The notes under the pieces are model-generated. The model was not told the DNA's origin. It saw nothing but the letters and a program-made list of their open reading frames with translations, and did no database searches. Of a stretch of 64,000 bases of DNA, positions 25,467-35,048 are shown piece by piece; within the stretch, counting starts at the first letter, position 1, and every line of letters begins with the position of its first letter. The stretch is taken from the NCBI GenBank assembly GCA_016191845.1, contig JACPVF010000009.1, positions 1 to 64,000 on the forward strand. Reading direction: 5' to 3'. The position numbers and the translations under genes are program-made. This stretch comes from Chloroflexota bacterium. Its GTDB lineage: Bacteria > Chloroflexota > Anaerolineae > Anaerolineales > Villigracilaceae.

Positions 25467-26483
25467 CTACTTCTTCAAGCTTTCTTCGATGGCAGATTTC
25501 ATGGCGTCGAGCACCTTGGCATCCACGGCGTTCCTGGCCACGCGGATGGCATTCTTGACGGCGAAGGCATCCGAGCGGCCATGACCGATGAAGACCAGTC
25601 CATTGACGCCCAACAGCGGGGCAGCGCCTTCCTCGCTGGGATCGAGCAGCTTCTTGATCTGGTTCAGCGCGGGCTTGACCAACGCGCCGCCGATCAGCGC
25701 CAGCGGTCCGCCGCTCTTGATGGCCGACTTGATCTTGTCCACGATCAACTTGGCCACTGCTTCGGAGGTCTTGAGCATCACGTTGCCCACAAAGCCGTCC
25801 GTGACGGCCACGTCCACTTTGCCGCCGATGACTTCCTTGCCTTCGACGTTGCCGAAGTAATTCAGCTTGGAGGCTTTGAACAACGGTGTGGCTTCCTTGA
25901 CGAGGTGATTGCCCTTGCCTTCCTCTTCGCCGTTCGAGACCAGGCCAACCTTGGGGTTTTTGACGCCGCGCACCTTTTCCGCGTAGATGCTACCCATGAT
26001 GCCGAACTGATAGAGGTGAACCGCTTCACAGTCGGGGTTGGCGCCGATGTCGAGGACCACGCACGAGCCTGTGGCGGTCGGGAAGACGGGGGCCAGCGCG
26101 GGGCGCTCCACACCGCGGATGCGTCCCAGGCGGAAGAGGGCCGTGACCATGGCCGCGCCCGTGTTGCCCGCCGTGACGAAGGCATCCGCTTCGCCCTTCT
26201 TGACCAGGTCGATGCCGACGGCCATCGAGTTCTGTGCATCCTTGTGACGGGCCTTGAAGGCCAGATCCTCGCCCTTGTCGTTCATGGTCAGCATCTCGGG
26301 GGCATGCACGATGCGGATCGGCAGGTTCCCTGGGTTGGCGGCTTCGAGCACGGGCTTGATCCTGGCTTCATCGCCGGCCAGGATGATCTCCACGCCGTAC
26401 TCTCGGGCGGCTGCCACGGCGCCTTGTACGTCTGGCACGGGGAATTCGTCACTGCCCATGGCGTCCACAACAATTCGAGTCAT
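25467..26483 (-). CDS. plsX: Phosphate acyltransferase PlsX
   Basis: A 338-residue soluble enzyme that converts acyl-ACP to acyl-phosphate, the donor for PlsY in phosphatidic acid synthesis. It begins TRIVVDAMGSDEFP and has DAFVTAGNTGAAMV, VVLDIGANPDC, NGEEEGKGN and DGFVGNVMLKT, all conserved in PlsX. Length is normal. A clear promoter was not found, but a 26-base palindrome lies 17 bases upstream of the ATG and may be its operator. It is followed by a membrane protein gene. The usual partner fabH/acpP genes are not here. Confidence 0.95.
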   Translation of the reverse strand: MTRIVVDAMGSDEFPVPDVQGAVAAAREYGVEIILAGDEARIKPVLEAANPGNLPIRIVHAPEMLTMNDKGEDLAFKARHKDAQNSMAVGIDLVKKGEADAFVTAGNTGAAMVTALFRLGRIRGVERPALAPVFPTATGSCVVLDIGANPDCEAVHLYQFGIMGSIYAEKVRGVKNPKVGLVSNGEEEGKGNHLVKEATPLFKASKLNYFGNVEGKEVIGGKVDVAVTDGFVGNVMLKTSEAVAKLIVDKIKSAIKSGGPLALIGGALVKPALNQIKKLLDPSEEGAAPLLGVNGLVFIGHGRSDAFAVKNAIRVARNAVDAKVLDAMKSAIEESLKK

Positions 26484-26842: not shown

Positions 26843-27604
26843 TCAAGCCAAAATCAAACTACAACAGGTGACGGCGCCTTCGGCCTTGGCGATCTCGGAG
26901 ACGTCGAGCGTGAGGAGTTGTGTCCCGTGCGCCTGGATGCGCGCCTGGGTCTCGGGGAAGGCGTCGGGATAGATGCCCGTCCCGCCGATAACCAGGATGT
27001 TGGCCGCCGTGGGCTCGGACGGGGCCACCTCGACGATCTGGAACTGGCCGAAGACAGTGGAGTCCACCCAGGCAGGATTGACCAGCAGGGTGTCTGCGTC
27101 CAGGCGGGTGACGGCGCTCTTGAGGTGTAGAAAGTCACCGACCTGCACACCATGGACTTTGTAGCCGTATCTATCCAACATGGATTGCAGCTGCCGAACC
27201 GCCTCGGCATTGCTGCGCGAGGACAGGCCAATGTAAATGGCCTTGTCCAGTACGAGCACGTCACCGCCATCGAGGGTGGCGGGCCCACGCACGAAGAGCA
27301 GGTCGCGATGTGGACGCAGGGCGTCAGCGACGGAAGCGGTCTCGGGTTTGCGCGAGTCGGCTCCAGGGCGGGTGATGACGGCCACCTCGAGCAGGATAAA
27401 GGCCGCATCCTCGACGAAAACCGAGTCGGGCAGGTTGTCTTCGGCGGACAATTCCACCACATGACATCCCAGGCTCTTCAACGCGCGAACGTAGCCCGCA
27501 TGTTGGGCGCGGGCCTTGCCCACATCGATGGGCTCACGCTGGATGTGGGTCAATTCACATTCGGCGAAGCGCGCGCTGACCTGACGGACGATGGCGAGGG
27601 GCAT
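26843..27604 (-). CDS. Dimethylargininase (DDAH)-like amidino-hydrolase
   Basis: A 253-residue guanidino-modifying enzyme of the DDAH/arginine deiminase superfamily. LDGGDVLVL and the catalytic-His segment DFLHLKSAVTRL are conserved, and the nucleophilic Cys lies in GAVTCCSLIL at the extreme C-terminus, as in DDAH. DDAH converts N-omega-methylated arginines to citrulline and methylamines. It is the last gene of an amino-acid ABC transporter operon: the ATG touches the stop of the ATPase gene. This suggests that the transporter imports the substrate. A plain citrulline-forming deiminase or ornithine-cyclising variant is less likely. Confidence 0.87.
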   Translation of the reverse strand: MPLAIVRQVSARFAECELTHIQREPIDVGKARAQHAGYVRALKSLGCHVVELSAEDNLPDSVFVEDAAFILLEVAVITRPGADSRKPETASVADALRPHRDLLFVRGPATLDGGDVLVLDKAIYIGLSSRSNAEAVRQLQSMLDRYGYKVHGVQVGDFLHLKSAVTRLDADTLLVNPAWVDSTVFGQFQIVEVAPSEPTAANILVIGGTGIYPDAFPETQARIQAHGTQLLTLDVSEIAKAEGAVTCCSLILA

Positions 27605-28365
27605 CAGTTGCTTCCCGAGCGATAGCGGTCGATCAGGGCGCGGGTGCGCGGGTCTTTCGGGTTCTCGAACAGTTCTTCGGGTGGGGCTTGCTCGATGATC
27701 TCACCGTCGGCCATGACCACCACGCGGTCGGCGACCTCTTTGGCGAAGCCCATCTCGTGCGTGACGATCAGCATGGTCATGCCTTCCTGGGCGACCTTCT
27801 TCATGACGTTGAGCACCTCGCCGATCAACTCGGGGTCGAGGGCGGAGGTGGGTTCATCGAAGAGCATCACACGCGGTTCCATGGTCAGGGCGCGGGCAAT
27901 GGCCACACGTTGTTTCTGTCCGCCTGAGAGGCGGTTGGGATACTCGTCCTTCTTCCAGAGCATGTCCACGTTGTTGAGGTTCTTCTCGGCCAGTTCGATG
28001 GCCTTGGTGCGATCCATCTTCTTGACGATGACGGGTCCCTCGATGACGTTCTCGAGCACGCTCATGTGCGGGAAGAGGTTGAAGTCCTGGAAGACCATGC
28101 CTGTCTTGAGGCGCAGGTCGTGAATCAACTGACGGTGTTCCTTGCCTTTTTCACCCCCCTCTACGATCAGGCCGTCCACTTCGATGGTGCCGCTGGAAGG
28201 TTCTTCGAGGAAGTTGATGCAGCGCAGGAAAGTGCTCTTGCCCGAGCCGCTGCGCCCGATGATGCAGACCACCTCACGCGGCTGGACTTCAAGCGAGATG
28301 TTCTTCAGCACGTGCAGGCGGCCGAAGTATTTATCAAGATTGGAGACTTTGACGATGGGAGCCAT
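27604..28365 (-). CDS. Polar amino acid ABC transporter, ATP-binding protein
   Basis: A 253-residue ABC ATPase of the GlnQ/HisP group, energising amino acid import. Walker A is GRSGSGKST, the Q-loop is [11 protein letters not shown], the signature is LSGGQKQR, Walker B is [12 protein letters not shown], and the switch His is in VTHEMGFA. It starts one base after the permease gene and overlaps the start of the DDAH-like gene, so translation of the three is coupled. The substrate is not set by the ATPase; the operon context suggests a cationic or methylated arginine-type amino acid. Confidence 0.95.
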
Positions 28366-28366
28366 G

Positions 28367-29209
28367 TTAGCGGTCTCCCTTTGACATGCGGGTTTCGAGC
28401 CGATTCTGGAAATAAGTCAGGATCAGGGTCAGGCCCCAATAGAATACTGCTGCGACGATGAGCGCCTCCAGGTTGTTGAACTGCGCGCGGCCGACCTTGG
28501 TGGCGCGCCACATCAATTCGTGGACGAAGCCTGTGGCCGAGACCAGCGCCGAGTCCTTGGTCATCGAGATGAAGTCGTTCCCCATGGGCGGGATGGCAAA
28601 GCGCAACGCCTGTGGGATGACGATGCGGCGCATGGTCTGGCCATTGGTCATCCCGAGAGCGATGGCGGCTTCACGCTGTCCCTTGCTGACCGAGGCGATG
28701 CCTGCGCGGAAGGTCTCACTCATGTATGCACCGTAATTCAATCCGAGCGCCAGCACGCCCGCCCAGAGGCCTGGCACGGCGGCCCAGGCAGGAATGATTT
28801 GGGGTAGCGCAAGAAAAAAGAAAAAAATCTGCAAATACAGTGGTGTGCCGCGAATGAGCGAGACATAGAAAGTGCTCAGAGCGTAGAAGGGCGGAAAGGT
28901 GGAGAGGCGCCCGAGCGCTGCCAGCAGGGCAAGAAGGATGGCTAGCAGAATGGACAAGATCGAAATGCGGATCGTTTCCCCCAGACCGCCTGCAATGAAG
29001 GATAGATTCCTCGAAATGAAGTCGGTATCCAATGAAATGGTTTTGATGCCGAGGAAATTCTGCCCGCTGAAGAAAAAGATAATGATCAGCAGCAAAGCCA
29101 CCCACGTTATTCCTACATGCATGCGAAAGATGCGAACTTTTCGCAGTTGCGCCTGGTAGATTAATTCCGCTTGCGGTATGGGCGCTCCCTGGTCGGCGAT
29201 GGATGCCAT
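28367..29209 (-). CDS. Polar amino acid ABC transporter, permease
   Basis: A 280-residue HisMQ-type membrane subunit. After a charged N-terminus and a first helix (~35-50) it has the [14 protein letters not shown] start of the conserved region, [14 protein letters not shown], and the EAA loop [23 protein letters not shown]. About six helices. GGAGG lies just before the ATG. A strong hairpin separates it from the upstream binding-protein gene, which fits the usual excess of binding protein over permease. Only one permease gene is present, so a homodimer is likely. Confidence 0.94.
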
Positions 29210-29228: not shown

Positions 29229-29270
29229 AAAAAAAATAAAGGAAAGCGGTAAGGATTACCGCTTTCCTTT
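29229..29270 (-). terminator. Attenuating terminator between binding-protein and permease genes
   Basis: AAAGGAAAGCGGTAA (29238-29252) pairs exactly with TTACCGCTTTCCTTT (29256-29270). On the minus strand it is followed by A then a T8 run. It would end most transcripts after the binding-protein gene and let a fraction read on into the permease. Confidence 0.9.
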
Positions 29271-29285
29271 GGTCAAATGTCCCGA

Positions 29286-30233
29286 TCAGGGATTCGCAAC
29301 TTTCACTGCGATAACAGCAGGCGTAAAGTAGTACGGGATGCTGAAGTCCAGAATCTTCTGACGTTCGGTGGTAATGGTCATGGAACCAATGCTGATGTCC
29401 CATTTGTTCGCCCAGTTCCCTGCAGTGATGGTGTCCCATGAGGGCGTTGCGAAACAGGTTTCCACACCGATTGCCTCGCCAACGGCCTTGGCAACATCCA
29501 CATCGAAGCCCTGCATTTCGGCGGTGGTCAGAGCATCGGCGGGACATTTGGTATCGGATGGGCGTTTGCCTTCAGTGTTAAGGAAGGACTGTGGCTCGTA
29601 GTTCGGGTCGGTGGAAACGAGGATGTATCCGCGCTGTTTGATAGTCGAAAGCAGGTCGCCATCTACGGGGGCGGCTTCTGAAGCCGTAAACGCGGCTCCG
29701 CTGGGAGATTGCGTCAGATCGGTCTTGAACCACTGGTTCGAAAGCGCCGCCAGCGAGCCATCGGAGTGCATCTTGGCAAAGACCTTGTCCACTTCGGCGC
29801 GCAGGGAGGCGGTGTCGAGAGTGGAGGATTTGTCGAATGCGGCCGCCAGATCCTCGGAGTAGACGGGTTTCCCGAGTTTCTTGACGGGCATGCCTGCTGC
29901 AATATTCGCATCCACGACCGTCTCGGAAGTGACGTAGCCCACGAAGTCCTGGCGTCCCGCTACCAAAGCCTGGGCGCATTCCTGGTCGGTGTCCAGAGTG
30001 ACAACCTTTACATTGGCGGGAACTTTGGCATAGATGGATGATTCTGGCAAGCCAAGGCCAGCCATATCATTGTTGAGCCAGTAGTCATAAGTAGTAGCGG
30101 TGCCTGCGCACAACGCATACCCAGACAGATCCTCCAGCGAGTTGAACTCGGGAGTCTTGCTTTGGGATCCGCAGGCGGTGAGGGCGAGTGATGCCACCAC
30201 GACCAGACTGATCAGCGTAAACAGTTTTTTCAT
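29286..30233 (-). CDS. Amino acid-binding lipoprotein with circularly permuted lobes
   Basis: A 315-residue solute-binding protein of the polar amino acid family. It has a lipoprotein signal (MKKLFTLISLVVVASLALTAC; Cys at 21). ATG 30233 is preceded by GGAGG. The mature protein begins with what is normally the second lobe: SLEDLSGYALCAGTATTYDYW, LDTDQECAQALVAGRQDF, and LRAEVDKVFAKMHSDGSLAAL ending NQWFKTDLTQ. It then continues with the normal N-terminal lobe: STIKQRGYILVSTDPNYEPQSF, GFDVDVAKAVGEAIGV, and GSMTITTERQKILDFSIPYY, and stops at AVKVANP. All parts of one family member are present once but in swapped order. First gene of the operon with permease, ATPase and DDAH-like hydrolase. Confidence 0.9.
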   Translation of the reverse strand: MKKLFTLISLVVVASLALTACGSQSKTPEFNSLEDLSGYALCAGTATTYDYWLNNDMAGLGLPESSIYAKVPANVKVVTLDTDQECAQALVAGRQDFVGYVTSETVVDANIAAGMPVKKLGKPVYSEDLAAAFDKSSTLDTASLRAEVDKVFAKMHSDGSLAALSNQWFKTDLTQSPSGAAFTASEAAPVDGDLLSTIKQRGYILVSTDPNYEPQSFLNTEGKRPSDTKCPADALTTAEMQGFDVDVAKAVGEAIGVETCFATPSWDTITAGNWANKWDISIGSMTITTERQKILDFSIPYYFTPAVIAVKVANP

Positions 30234-30358: not shown

Positions 30359-30386
30359 AGCATAGACCATTTTGGGCATTTGTCAA
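30359..30386 (-). promoter_or_regulatory. Promoter of the amino acid ABC operon
   Basis: On the minus strand TTGACA (30386-30381), 16-base spacer, TATGCT (30364-30359). The leader to ATG 30233 is about 120 bases. The remainder of the 285-base divergent gap holds the plus-strand start of the SCP2 gene and no other recognised feature. Confidence 0.7.
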
Positions 30387-30518
30387 GATTTTCATTCCTT
30401 AAGATTCAATCGCGGCCAGATTTGTTAAGATTGTGCCAGTCTCGTCATGCGATCATGACCATATGGATCGTTTGATCAAAATGGTACAATCAATCCATAC
30501 TCATCCATGGAGGTTTGC

Positions 30519-30929
30519 ATGACCGCTGTATTCCCCAGCCCTGAATGGCTGACAGGCCTGAAAGACAAGTTGAATTCGGACGAACGCTACCGCGAGATCG
30601 CCAAAAGCTGGGAGGGCGATCTGTTTTTTTTCATCGAGCCCGAGGGAAATCTCAAGGAACAATTGACCTTCTATCTGGACCTGTGGCACGGTACCTGCCG
30701 CGCCGCTGAGTATGCCGCTGATCCCGCCAAATATCCGAGCCCGGTCTTCACCCTGCGCGCCCGCTACAATGACATCACTGCTGTCCTGCTCGGAAAGATG
30801 AATCCCATGACTGCCATGATGACCAGCAAGCTCAAAGTCTCGGGCAGCATGGGGTATATGATGCGCAACGTACCGACCGTGCTGGATTTCGTCCGCTGTG
30901 CGAACGAAGTGACCAAGGAAATCTCCTAA
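30519..30929 (+). CDS. SCP2 sterol-carrier domain protein (second copy)
   Basis: A 136-residue SCP2-type lipid-binding protein. The C-terminal part AVLLGKMNPMTAMMTSKLKVSGSMGYMM matches the GKLKxxGDMxxAM signature, and the N-terminal part SWEGDLFFFIEP is the first strand. The start is set at ATG 30519 because GGAGGT lies five bases upstream; an earlier in-frame ATG overlaps that site. It lies 61 bases before an AOR-family gene, with a half repeat between. It probably binds a lipid or acyl-CoA; the link to AOR is positional only. Confidence 0.85.
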   Translation: MTAVFPSPEWLTGLKDKLNSDERYREIAKSWEGDLFFFIEPEGNLKEQLTFYLDLWHGTCRAAEYAADPAKYPSPVFTLRARYNDITAVLLGKMNPMTAMMTSKLKVSGSMGYMMRNVPTVLDFVRCANEVTKEIS

Positions 30930-30936
30930 TCTCTAT

Positions 30937-30982
30937 GCGCTGAATGGAGCAGACATTCTTCGCAAATGTAGTCGAAGCGTGA
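30937..30982 (+). repeat. Interspersed palindromic repeat, half copy (A arm)
   Basis: ATGCGCTGAATGGAGC and GTAGTCGAAGCGTGAG match the A arm of the composite repeat at 12335-12450, 58791-58904 and 61938-62049. No B arm follows. The GTG inside it is a poor candidate start for the downstream gene. Confidence 0.7.
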
Positions 30983-30990
30983 GTCACTCT

Positions 30991-32808
30991 ATGCAACCAA
31001 TCTTAAAGTTTGACCTTTCCACCGGGACTTACGAGGAGTTTCACATCCCCGAGGCCTGGGAAAAACAGTTTCTGGGTGGAGCGTCGCTGGCGGCGCGCCT
31101 GCTGTACGATACCCTAACCCCCAGCCTGGATCCGTTCTCGCCCGCTGCGCCACTGCTCTTCATGACGGGTCCGCTGACGGGTACTTCGGGCCCCACCACG
31201 GGACGTTTCGTCATCTGCGGGCTTTCGCCTGCCACTGGACTCTGGGCTGAGTCGCATATCGGCGGCTTCTGGGGACCCGAATTGCGCTCCGCAGGCTACG
31301 ATGGCCTTTGGTTGACGGGCAAGGCCGATCGTCCCGTCTACCTGTGGATCGACGATGGCAAAGTCGAGGTCCGCGAGGCGGGACACCTGTGGGGCAGGGA
31401 AACCTATGATACACAGAATCAGGTCAAGGCGGAGATCGGTGTGAAGGGGACACGGGTTTGCGTCATCGGGCCCGCAGGGGAGAAACAGGTTCTGTTCGCG
31501 TCGATCCTCTCCGACCATGGACGCCTGGCGGGCCGCACGGGACTCGGCGCGGTGATGGGCGCGAAGAATCTCAAGGCTGTGGCGGTGCACGGCACGAACA
31601 AAATTCCAGTCTTCGACCTGACTCAATACGCGCCTCTGCGTTCCGAAGCCAACCGTACTCTCAAACAGGATAACGAAGCGCGCATCCTGCACGAACTGGG
31701 ATCGGCGGGCGCAGCCAATTACGCGGAGTATCTCGGGCAGATGCCCGCCAAATATTACAGCCAGGGCGCTTTCCCCGATGTGGACAAGATCTCGGGTTCG
31801 ATGATGACCGAAACCATCCTGGCAGGGACAAGTGCCTGCCAGGGCTGTGTCATTGCCTGCGGGCGGGTGGTCAAGCTGGATGACGGGAACAAACGCAAAG
31901 GTCCTGAATATGAAACGACCGTGGCCTTCGGGGCGAACCTGTTGAACAGTGACCTGTCTGCCGTGGTGCGTTTGGGCGAGTTGTGTGACCGTTATGGCAT
32001 GGACACCATCAGCACGGGCAATACCCTCGGGCTGGCATTTACCCTCTTCGAGCAGGGCATACTCACTGCGGCAGATACTGACAATCTCGAATTGGCCTGG
32101 GGCGACGTGACGGTCATCGAGCAGCTCATCCACAAGATCGGACAGCGCGAAGGTATTGGCGACCTGCTTGCATTGGGATCGAAGCGCTTTGGTGCGCATT
32201 TCAAATCGGAGGAAAAGGCCGTGCAGGTCAACGGCCTGGAAGTTGCCTACCACGATCCACGCGGGGTGTCGGGCATGGCGCTTTCATATGCCACCTCGCC
32301 GCGCGGCGCATGCCACAATCAGTCGGATTATTTCTTTGTGGAATGGGGCCACATCTACCCCGACATCGGGATCGACTTTTACGAACGTCACGCGGGCGCG
32401 GAAAAAGCTGCCAACGTGGCGCGTCATCAGGACTGGCGCACGATCTTCAATGCGCTGACCATCTGCATCTTTGCCAACGTCGAACCGCAGATGCAGGTCA
32501 ATCTGATCAACGCCGCCTGTGGACTGAACTGGACCATCGAGGACATGCTGCAGGCAGGGGAGCGCGCCTGGAACTTGAAGCGTGCCATCAACAACCGTCT
32601 TGGCCTGACGCGTGCCAATGACAAGCTGCCCAAGGCGTTGCTGGAGCCGCTTGCGGAGGGCGGCTCGGCAGGCTTTGTTCCCGACCTGCCCGCCATGCTG
32701 GATGCGTACTATGTTGTCCGTGGTTGGGACCCCGAGTCGGGCCGCCCGACGAAGGAACGATTACTGTCCCTGGGTCTGGAAGATATTGCGGCCGACCTGT
32801 GGAAATGA
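30991..32808 (+). CDS. Aldehyde ferredoxin oxidoreductase family protein (copy 1)
   Basis: A 605-residue tungsto-/molybdopterin enzyme of the AOR family, oxidising an aldehyde to the acid with ferredoxin as acceptor, or the reverse. TGPLTGTSGPTTGRF and GRTGLGAVMGAKNLKAVAV are the pterin-binding segments. The [4Fe-4S] ligands are SACQGCVIACG (C-x2-C-x3-C, ~residues 282-292) with a fourth Cys in ALTICIFANV. ATG 30991 is preferred, since the upstream GTG lies inside an interspersed repeat. It ends at a strong terminator. The substrate is unknown; a second, divergent AOR lies at 59927. Confidence 0.92.
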   Translation: MQPILKFDLSTGTYEEFHIPEAWEKQFLGGASLAARLLYDTLTPSLDPFSPAAPLLFMTGPLTGTSGPTTGRFVICGLSPATGLWAESHIGGFWGPELRSAGYDGLWLTGKADRPVYLWIDDGKVEVREAGHLWGRETYDTQNQVKAEIGVKGTRVCVIGPAGEKQVLFASILSDHGRLAGRTGLGAVMGAKNLKAVAVHGTNKIPVFDLTQYAPLRSEANRTLKQDNEARILHELGSAGAANYAEYLGQMPAKYYSQGAFPDVDKISGSMMTETILAGTSACQGCVIACGRVVKLDDGNKRKGPEYETTVAFGANLLNSDLSAVVRLGELCDRYGMDTISTGNTLGLAFTLFEQGILTAADTDNLELAWGDVTVIEQLIHKIGQREGIGDLLALGSKRFGAHFKSEEKAVQVNGLEVAYHDPRGVSGMALSYATSPRGACHNQSDYFFVEWGHIYPDIGIDFYERHAGAEKAANVARHQDWRTIFNALTICIFANVEPQMQVNLINAACGLNWTIEDMLQAGERAWNLKRAINNRLGLTRANDKLPKALLEPLAEGGSAGFVPDLPAMLDAYYVVRGWDPESGRPTKERLLSLGLEDIAADLWK

Positions 32809-33248: not shown

Positions 33249-33410
33249 GGAAACACCTCTTTCTGGGGGAAGGGCAGGCTTGGGAATATTATGCCATAAC
33301 TCCAAAACGCATATAAAACTTTTATCATTCTTGTGTACAATCCCTGCATCCCGTAAAGGATGCCGAAGCCTGAAGCTTTGGACTCCCGCCAAAAATTGGA
33401 GGATCTTCTT

Positions 33411-35048
33411 ATGAAACTGGTCACTGTCGCGCAGATGCGCGAGATCGAAAAGGAAGCCGACGCCAACGGCCTGTCCTACGAAGACATGATGGAAAACGCG
33501 GGCCGCGAACTGGCCTATGCGGTGGCCGACCTGCCTTATTTTTACGAAGAAGAGGAAGATGTCGAGATTCTGGGCCTGGTCGGACCTGGCAACAACGGCG
33601 GCGATACGCTGGTGGCGCTGACTCACCTGGCTGCCGACGGCTGGACCGCGCGCGCCTACCTGATCAAGCGCAAGGCCAAGGGTGACGAACTGGTCGAGCA
33701 ATTCCTCGAAATGGGGGGCGAAGTGGTCGAGGCCGCCAAGGACAAGGAGTTTGCCTCCCTGTATGCCTCGCTCGACACCGCCCACGTCCTGTTCGACGGT
33801 GTGCTGGGCACGGGCATCAAGTTGCCCTTGAAGACGGATGTGGCCGAGGTGCTGGAAGCCGTCAGTGCCGCGCTGGACGAAATGGAGGAGCCGCCCTTTG
33901 TCGTGGCCGTGGATTGCCCTTCGGGCGTGGACTGCGACTCGGGTGAGGCCGCCGACGAGACCATTCCTGCCGACCTGACCGTGACGATGGCCGCCGTCAA
34001 AATGGGGTTGCTCAAATCCCCCGCCGCTGACCTGACGGGCGACCTGGTGGTGGCTGACATCGGCCTGACTGAGAAGGTCAAATCCTGGATGGGTGTCAAG
34101 CGCGAGGTGGCCGACGAGGACACCATCGCCGCCATCCTGCCTGAGCGACCGTCCGAGGCGCACAAAGGCACCTTCGGCACCGCGCTGATCGCGGCAGGCT
34201 CGGTCAACTATACGGGCGCGGCCCTACTGGCGGGACTCTCCGCCTATCGCGTGGGTGCGGGATTGGTCACGATGGCCGTCCCTGCTCCGTTGCATGGGGC
34301 GCTGGCGGGACAATTCCCCGAAGCGACCTGGGTCCTGCTTCCGCACGAAATGGGCGTGATCTCAGCGGGTGCGGCAGACGTGCTGGCCAAGAATTTCGAG
34401 CGCGCCACGGCTTTGCTTATCGGCCCTGGCTTTGGCGTCGAAGACACAACCCGAGAGTTTATCGAAAACCTGTTGACGGGCAAGGCTGTCTCGAAGAAAT
34501 CGGCGGCGCGCATTGGCTTCGTGCATGCCGAGGTTGAGAAGAAGGAAGAAAAGAACGGCAGCCTGCCCCCGCTGGTTTTTGATGCGGATGGATTGAAACT
34601 GTTGGCGAAGATTCCCGATTGGTCGAAGTTACTGCCTGCGCCTGCCGTGTTGACCCCGCATCCTGGAGAGATGTCCGTGTTGACGGGTCTCTCGAAGGAA
34701 GAGGTCCAGGCAGATCGCGAGGGCGTAGCCCTGCGCTTTGCGCAGGAATGGGGTCACGTGGTGGTGCTGAAGGGCGCCTTCACGGTGATTGCCTCGCCCG
34801 ATGGCCGTTCGACGGTCATCCCTGTGGCCTCTCCTGCACTGGCGCGGGCTGGGACGGGCGATGTGTTGGCGGGCCTGATCGTCGGCCTGCGCGCCCAAGG
34901 CGTGGATGCCTATGATGCTGCTGTGGCGGGGGCCTGGATCCACGCACGGGCGGGGCTGGAAGCCGCCGAGGCGCTCGGCACCACAGCCTCGGTCCTGGCG
35001 GGCGATGTCCTTGCGGCTGTGCCTGATGTGCTGTCGGAGCTTGAATAA
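33411..35048 (+). CDS. nnr: Bifunctional NAD(P)H-hydrate epimerase / dehydratase
   Basis: A 545-residue metabolite-repair enzyme. The N-terminal YjeF_N epimerase domain (1-~215) has MMENAGRELA, LVGPGNNGGDTL and AVDCPSGVDCDSG. The C-terminal carbohydrate kinase-like ADP/ATP-dependent dehydratase (~230-545) has HKGTFGTALIAAGS, LTPHPGEMSVLTG, VVLKGAFTVIASPDG and the catalytic GTGDVLAGLI. Together they restore hydrated NAD(P)H. ATG 33411 is chosen because GGAGGAT lies eight bases upstream. It is monocistronic and ends at a strong terminator shared with the response regulator gene. Confidence 0.95.
   Translation: MKLVTVAQMREIEKEADANGLSYEDMMENAGRELAYAVADLPYFYEEEEDVEILGLVGPGNNGGDTLVALTHLAADGWTARAYLIKRKAKGDELVEQFLEMGGEVVEAAKDKEFASLYASLDTAHVLFDGVLGTGIKLPLKTDVAEVLEAVSAALDEMEEPPFVVAVDCPSGVDCDSGEAADETIPADLTVTMAAVKMGLLKSPAADLTGDLVVADIGLTEKVKSWMGVKREVADEDTIAAILPERPSEAHKGTFGTALIAAGSVNYTGAALLAGLSAYRVGAGLVTMAVPAPLHGALAGQFPEATWVLLPHEMGVISAGAADVLAKNFERATALLIGPGFGVEDTTREFIENLLTGKAVSKKSAARIGFVHAEVEKKEEKNGSLPPLVFDADGLKLLAKIPDWSKLLPAPAVLTPHPGEMSVLTGLSKEEVQADREGVALRFAQEWGHVVVLKGAFTVIASPDGRSTVIPVASPALARAGTGDVLAGLIVGLRAQGVDAYDAAVAGAWIHARAGLEAAEALGTTASVLAGDVLAAVPDVLSELE

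Follow-up and report, generated by a model that had tools for sequence, protein, structure and literature searches.

Most known natural circular permutants are ancient, and the event itself is inseparable from the divergence that followed. Among the binding lipoproteins of ABC importers, a natural permutant was described in T. pallidum, whose glucose-binding lipoprotein TpMglB-2 (Tp0684; Type Ic / Cluster Bc) binds glucose and closes; its cut lies in the N lobe and creates a fourth hinge crossing, the arrangement is common to many species and the permuted part aligns at 13% identity (PMC4990184). The glycine-betaine-binding proteins of the OpuAC/ProX group are also mutually related by circular permutation, a natural one as well, but it represents an old divergence with less than 24% identity and was found from structures (PMC2395249). 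The tandem substrate-binding domains (SBDs) of the GlnPQ type contain a C-part followed by an N-part and are likely the sort of intermediate through which a permutant can arise. An earlier note on the DNA studied here, made from the sequence alone, knew of no well-described natural permutant in the polar amino acid binding family; for PF00497 none was found reported in the open-licence literature, although permutants are known in the wider binding-protein superfamily.

The stretch analysed, referred to as the window, comprises the first 64,000 nt of contig JACPVF010000009.1 from a Chloroflexota bacterium (GCA_016191845.1). The product of the gene at 29286-30233 on its minus strand is an SBP_bac_3 (PF00497) lipoprotein in circularly permuted form, with the signal peptide left in front. 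It resembles the members of PF00497 cluster F (ArgBP, LAO, GlnH and AncCDT-1) in family, in lipobox and in its cluster with a HEQRo-type permease and an ATPase, but differs from them in the reversed halves, in the termini predicted within the small lobe and in a 17-residue linker between the old termini. TpMglB-2 is likewise a natural permutant of an ABC-importer binding lipoprotein, but of the Type I, cluster B branch of sugar-binding sequences, in which the first strands of the N lobe have gone to the C-terminus, whereas the sequence of the window protein is that of PF00497, of the amino-acid type, and not of Type Ic / Cluster Bc. Unlike the widely shared permutation of TpMglB-2, the present event is private to one genome and has unpermuted relatives that are 83% identical. 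Compared with the GlnPQ-type tandem SBDs, it holds a single copy of each part in 315 aa instead of two full domains. By analogy, the ligand binding and closure of TpMglB-2 provide a precedent for a permuted binding protein that may stay functional.

Order of the parts in the permuted gene

The open reading frame starts with an ATG at 30233, begins MKKLFTLISLVVVASLALTAC and ends with a TGA at 29288-29286 (315 aa), on the coordinates and strand originally proposed. A canonical profile of 298 positions was built from an alignment of 46 canonical orthologues, and the permuted protein matched it in three pieces, which along the chain correspond to profile positions 1-27, 152-298 and 24-149; a canonical member, used as control, gave a single unbroken match from 1 to 298. 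The first piece (residues 1-27) includes the signal peptide with its lipobox LTAC (residues 1-21; 30171-30233, minus strand), and the leader of the gene aligns with the leaders of the canonical orthologues. It is followed by the canonical second part, now N-terminal (residues 29-177; 29703-30149, minus strand; 240.9 bits, i-E 2.6e-75), which contains the small lobe minus its first strand, the second hinge crossing and the C-terminal large-lobe helices. A new internal linker, SPSGAAFTASEAAPVDG (residues 176-192; 29658-29708, minus strand), leads from the old C-terminus to the old N-terminus, and the canonical consensus has no such stretch between the corresponding elements. The canonical first part, now C-terminal (residues 187-312; 29298-29675, minus strand; 251.2 bits, i-E 1.9e-78), comprises the beginning of the large lobe together with YYFTPAVIAVK, the hinge strand. 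The chain then ends in a new C-terminus, VANP plus the stop codon TGA (29286-29300, minus strand), directly after the first small-lobe strand, at the point where the canonical chain goes on through a loop to the SLxDLxG helix. The sequences at the new junctions are LTACGSQSKTPEFNSLEDL and WFKTDLTQSPSGAAFTASEAAPVDGDLLSTIKQ.

In the profile search the permuted chain lacked roughly two loop positions of the canonical protein and nothing else, and it contained no informative segment twice. Since the profile segments occur once each and in rotated order, the protein is a true circular permutant; the swapped order, the single occurrence of each element and the signal peptide at the new N-terminus, all read from the sequence by the earlier note, were borne out, and the match in standard order that would have spoken against them was absent from the 46-orthologue profile. 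The separate match of both halves to PF00497 was recovered with Pfam as well (91.2 bits against a cut-off of 26.4, in two stretches), the better stretch aligning residues 236-314 with SBP_bac_3 profile positions 17-94. Relatives in the PDB aligned with residues 195-314 of the permuted protein through their N-terminal part and with residues 73-170 through their C-terminal part. The protein departs from the collinear order of SBP_bac_3 (N-terminal part, hinge, small lobe, hinge, C-terminal part) and is a circularly permuted homologue of PF00497, rather than a standard member. The unpermuted parent is present in relatives, and the lipobox LTAC together with the adjoining permease and ATPase genes agrees with the exported lipoproteins of the family.

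Site of the cut and predicted topology

Structure prediction for the closest canonical orthologue (L032) gave a model with a mean pLDDT of 90.6, which superposed on TTC0807, AncCDT-1 and ArgBP at Z ~27. In this model the hinge is crossed towards the small lobe by the strand YYTPAVIAVA (139-148), and residue 156 opens the SLDQL helix (156-159). The permuted protein ends with VANP, added to the equivalent of L032 residue 148; TPEFNSLEDL is where its mature chain joins the fold. On the model, the cut is in the loop 149-154 inside the small lobe, just past the first post-hinge strand, and not at the lobe hinge itself, where the earlier note had placed the break. An alignment with GlnH agreed with the small-lobe cut: the window segment YYFTPAVIAVKVAN corresponds to GlnH 85-98, a range consistent with the 1ggg match, and the hinge of GlnH lies at 85-89. 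Both hinge crossings are retained in the permuted chain, the second now ahead of the first. From this topology, the lipidated cysteine would sit on the large-lobe side in the canonical proteins and on the small-lobe side in the permutant.

The AlphaFold model of the permuted chain had a mean pLDDT of 63.7 and a pTM of 0.45 and was confident for the small lobe only; the poor modelling of the large lobe is attributed to the input, in which only six large-lobe fragments were alignable. The modelled small lobe superposed at Z ~10 on its counterparts in GlnH and GlnP, and searches with Foldseek and VIA using this model returned matches to the small lobe only. The L032 model shows the bilobed fold with its cleft and two hinge strands; a like fold of the whole permuted chain is presumed. 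The cysteines C42, C86, C230 and C260, two per lobe, are conserved throughout the orthologous group; these pairs possibly form intralobe disulfides, unaffected by permutation.

Gene cluster and expression signals

The permuted gene heads a cluster in which a permease, an ATPase and a dimethylargininase-like gene follow, the same order as at most canonical loci. A putative sigma-70-type promoter (TTGACA - 16 nt - TATGCT; 30359-30386, minus strand), a consensus match from a scan, lies upstream, and the same element is found upstream of the canonical gene at a locus of the same genus (L045). The open reading frame is preceded by a GGAGGAG ribosome-binding (Shine-Dalgarno) site. Downstream there is a hairpin of 15 bp with a T-run (29238-29270, minus strand), located between the binding-protein and permease genes. 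The promoter, ribosome-binding site and terminator ascribed to this gene before thus all have their counterparts in the sequence, as they do around the canonical orthologues, but the hairpin stands between cistrons, with the genes for permease and ATPase beyond it. Equivalent hairpins (GGGAAGCGG...CCGCTTCCC) lie downstream of the canonical genes; the GGGAAGCGG-type hairpin in this position is kept in nearly all relatives examined, and probably sets an excess of binding protein over permease.

The ABC permease gene (BPD_transp_1, HEQRo_perm_3TM; 28367-29209, minus strand) and the gene for an ABC ATPase of the polar-amino-acid type (GlnQ/TcyN-like; 27604-28365, minus strand) encode products 90% and 92% identical to those of L045, respectively. 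The last cluster gene (26843-27604, minus strand), a neighbour at most canonical loci too, is dimethylargininase (DDAH)-like and scored 224.7 bits with NCBIfam NF045660, below the cut-off of 340. As the promoter, the leader and the 3' hairpin match those of canonical loci, only the gene interior was rotated. On the far side of the promoter there are genes for an SCP2 protein (30507-30929), an aldehyde ferredoxin oxidoreductase (30979-32808) and a NAD(P)HX dehydratase/epimerase (33360-35048), all on the plus strand, and beyond the cluster one for a fatty-acid synthesis (PlsX-type) protein (25467-26483, minus strand).

Distribution of the permuted order

Two collections together yielded 90 orthologous Anaerolineales loci, from partly identical assemblies and with about 70 distinct sequences. 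The first half preceded the second in all of them (90/90), in a single frame in 89/90, so that the permuted order is found at one locus only, that of the window. The orthologues that the earlier note had suggested looking for in related bacteria are abundant, but all are canonical and the permutation is private to this genome. The remaining locus (L089, 1846-2593) is a canonical orthologue with a 112-base out-of-frame gap between the halves, possibly a pseudogene or a sequencing error. The closest orthologue, L032, is 87% identical over the canonical first part, 80% over the canonical second part and 83% over 267 columns.

Other permuted copies were searched for by matches spanning both halves. 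The 152 family genomes, 88 of which carry the gene, gave none, and neither did 400 from the order, where 74 had a strong match. When the sequence around the new linker served as query, 396 genomes of the class yielded half-matches only, and searches of the genus and of viral contigs were negative for a permuted orthologue as well. Another species of the same genus (G001, on the same contig as L045) is canonical. The source genome is 99.17% complete, in a draft of 18 contigs, and the permuted gene is its only close homologue; a second canonical copy was rejected, the sole other match being 26% identical over 69 residues.

Conservation and signs of function

Near-invariant positions, defined by a conservation of 93% or more among the canonical sequences, number 104, and the permuted protein kept 102 of them, the exceptions being an L to I change and the Asp at the cut itself. 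Differences from the L045 gene were in excess at third codon positions (49/32/129 by codon position). NG86 dN/dS values against the nearest relatives ranged from 0.06 to 0.13, as between canonical genes, and span time before the permutation too. Changes private to the permuted gene numbered 7/2/16 by codon position, with 10 synonymous and 2 non-synonymous codons, and its terminal branch (0.19) was not longer than that of canonical L045 (0.29).

These data bear on the possibility that the rearrangement is real and its product dead, a recent in-frame accident heading to decay. Being private to one species, the event may be very young, the selection tests mix time before and after it, and the confident part of the permuted-chain model is limited to the small lobe. 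Against decay stand the intact frame, the private changes favouring third positions, the intact permease and ATPase genes that depend on the product, and the linker and tail, whose sequence is absent from relatives and which therefore do not look like freshly cut junctions. Given the promoter, Shine-Dalgarno site, lipobox and hairpin, the near-invariant residues retained and the low dN/dS, decay appears unlikely on the sequence evidence, and the impression of the earlier note that the gene looks functional gains support at the same level.

An assembly artefact, in which the true gene would be canonical and its pieces joined in the wrong order, is in our judgement very unlikely. It is suggested by the single draft genome in 18 contigs and by relatives that are all canonical, but it would need three wrong joins that together left an open frame, an in-frame signal peptide, a stop after a strand and each segment once; moreover, no exact word of more than 7 bases is common to the breakpoints, the region is without gap, and linker and tail hold sequence missing from the canonical genes. 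Collapsed tandem genes were rejected, as a collapse would restore the canonical order and the rotated order is observed. A chimera of the second half and first half of two paralogues from a tandem two-domain protein (GlnPQ-like SBD1-SBD2) is scarcely credible and not favoured, for although permutation by duplication passes through a tandem form and tandem SBDs exist (6h30 was among the fold matches), both halves have their nearest relatives in one and the same set of orthologues (L032: 87% and 80%) and no duplicated segment remained in the profile search; a tandem form as the historical route fits the preferred explanation, a genuine permutant.

The permuted protein most likely captures an amino acid and passes it to the permease encoded next to it. 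Its TTER sequence (residues 288-291) would supply the Arg of the TxER motif of the carboxylate site. In the alignments, neither the permutant nor the canonical orthologues have an Asp at the place of the small-lobe Asp that contacts the ligand amino group in GlnH and LAO, so the ligand may differ; it would be an amino acid, perhaps arginine-like. The dimethylargininase-like gene of the cluster may hint at import of arginine or methylated arginines.

Proposed origin of the permutation

Quite probably, the locus encodes an amino-acid-binding lipoprotein that underwent a genuine circular permutation in nature, within a single lineage of the Anaerolineales, and that still works; this reading draws on a single genome and on the order, completeness, uniqueness, neighbourhood and conserved residues observed there. 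The mature part of a canonical SBP_bac_3 gene would have been rotated in place. The 5' leader, the signal peptide and the 3' hairpin would have stayed where they were, and the segment reaching from the former start of the mature chain as far as the first strand of the small lobe would now follow the segment that closes with the old C-terminus. The chain would be exported and lipidated as before, with its anchor moved to the small lobe. The flexible 17-residue linker, possibly the former tether, would bridge the two old termini, which both belong to the large lobe. The new C-terminal strand would still cross the hinge and complete the small-lobe sheet, keeping both hinge strands and the cleft, and the protein could still close on its ligand and deliver it to the adjacent-encoded permease and ATPase.

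In the literature, permutants usually arise when a gene is duplicated in tandem and the outer halves are then lost, and block transposition leads to the same result; either may have operated here. No trace of a duplicated intermediate or second copy was found when the linker, the tail and the relatives' hairpins were compared. A linker derived from the 3' UTR of a first copy was rejected, its alignment to the tail being not significant (p = 0.41), and the comparison with the relatives' hairpins (p = 0.035, best of 70) was not convincing, as 7/65 windows from the same gene scored equally. In the canonical orthologues L054, L055, L011 and L098, long tethers of ATEAP repeats separate the first lobe from the lipidated cysteine. 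In composition the linker is like the Ala/Ser/Thr/Glu/Pro tethers of the first three, a likeness not significant in shuffles (p = 0.63), and a visual resemblance is seen between EATEAPVSGEADLLST of L055 and ASEAAPVDGDLLST; reuse of the old tether as an internal linker is suggestive only.

The distance between the permuted protein and the L045 binding protein (0.48) is three-fold that between the transporter genes (0.16), an outlier ratio, and the proportion of identical fourfold sites was 0.51 for the binding-protein gene and 0.67 for the transporter genes. The best tree grouped the two binding proteins vertically, without support. Either both are fast-evolving or one was exchanged by horizontal replacement. 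In L058, L079 and L092 the binding-protein and transporter distances were strongly discordant (ratios of 3 to 5), such as an exchange of binding-protein genes from cluster to cluster might leave them. The fuller proposal, namely a young, first natural permutant in PF00497 (cluster F), with the tether reused as linker, the anchor moved from large to small lobe and transport kept, is one to which we give even chances.

Implications

In its gene cluster the permutant takes the place that unpermuted orthologues, with identities of up to 83%, have in theirs; one canonical orthologue belongs to the same genus. With such close unpermuted relatives, the cost of the permutation, its route (duplication or block transposition) and the shift of the anchor from lobe to lobe become directly testable. 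For a scaffold type in wide use for biosensors, the locus also supplies a permutation site and a linker that evolved naturally. What sets it apart is the apparent youth of the permutation together with its many close unpermuted relatives. It has the look of a gene for nutrient uptake that was rearranged in nature not long ago and apparently still functions.
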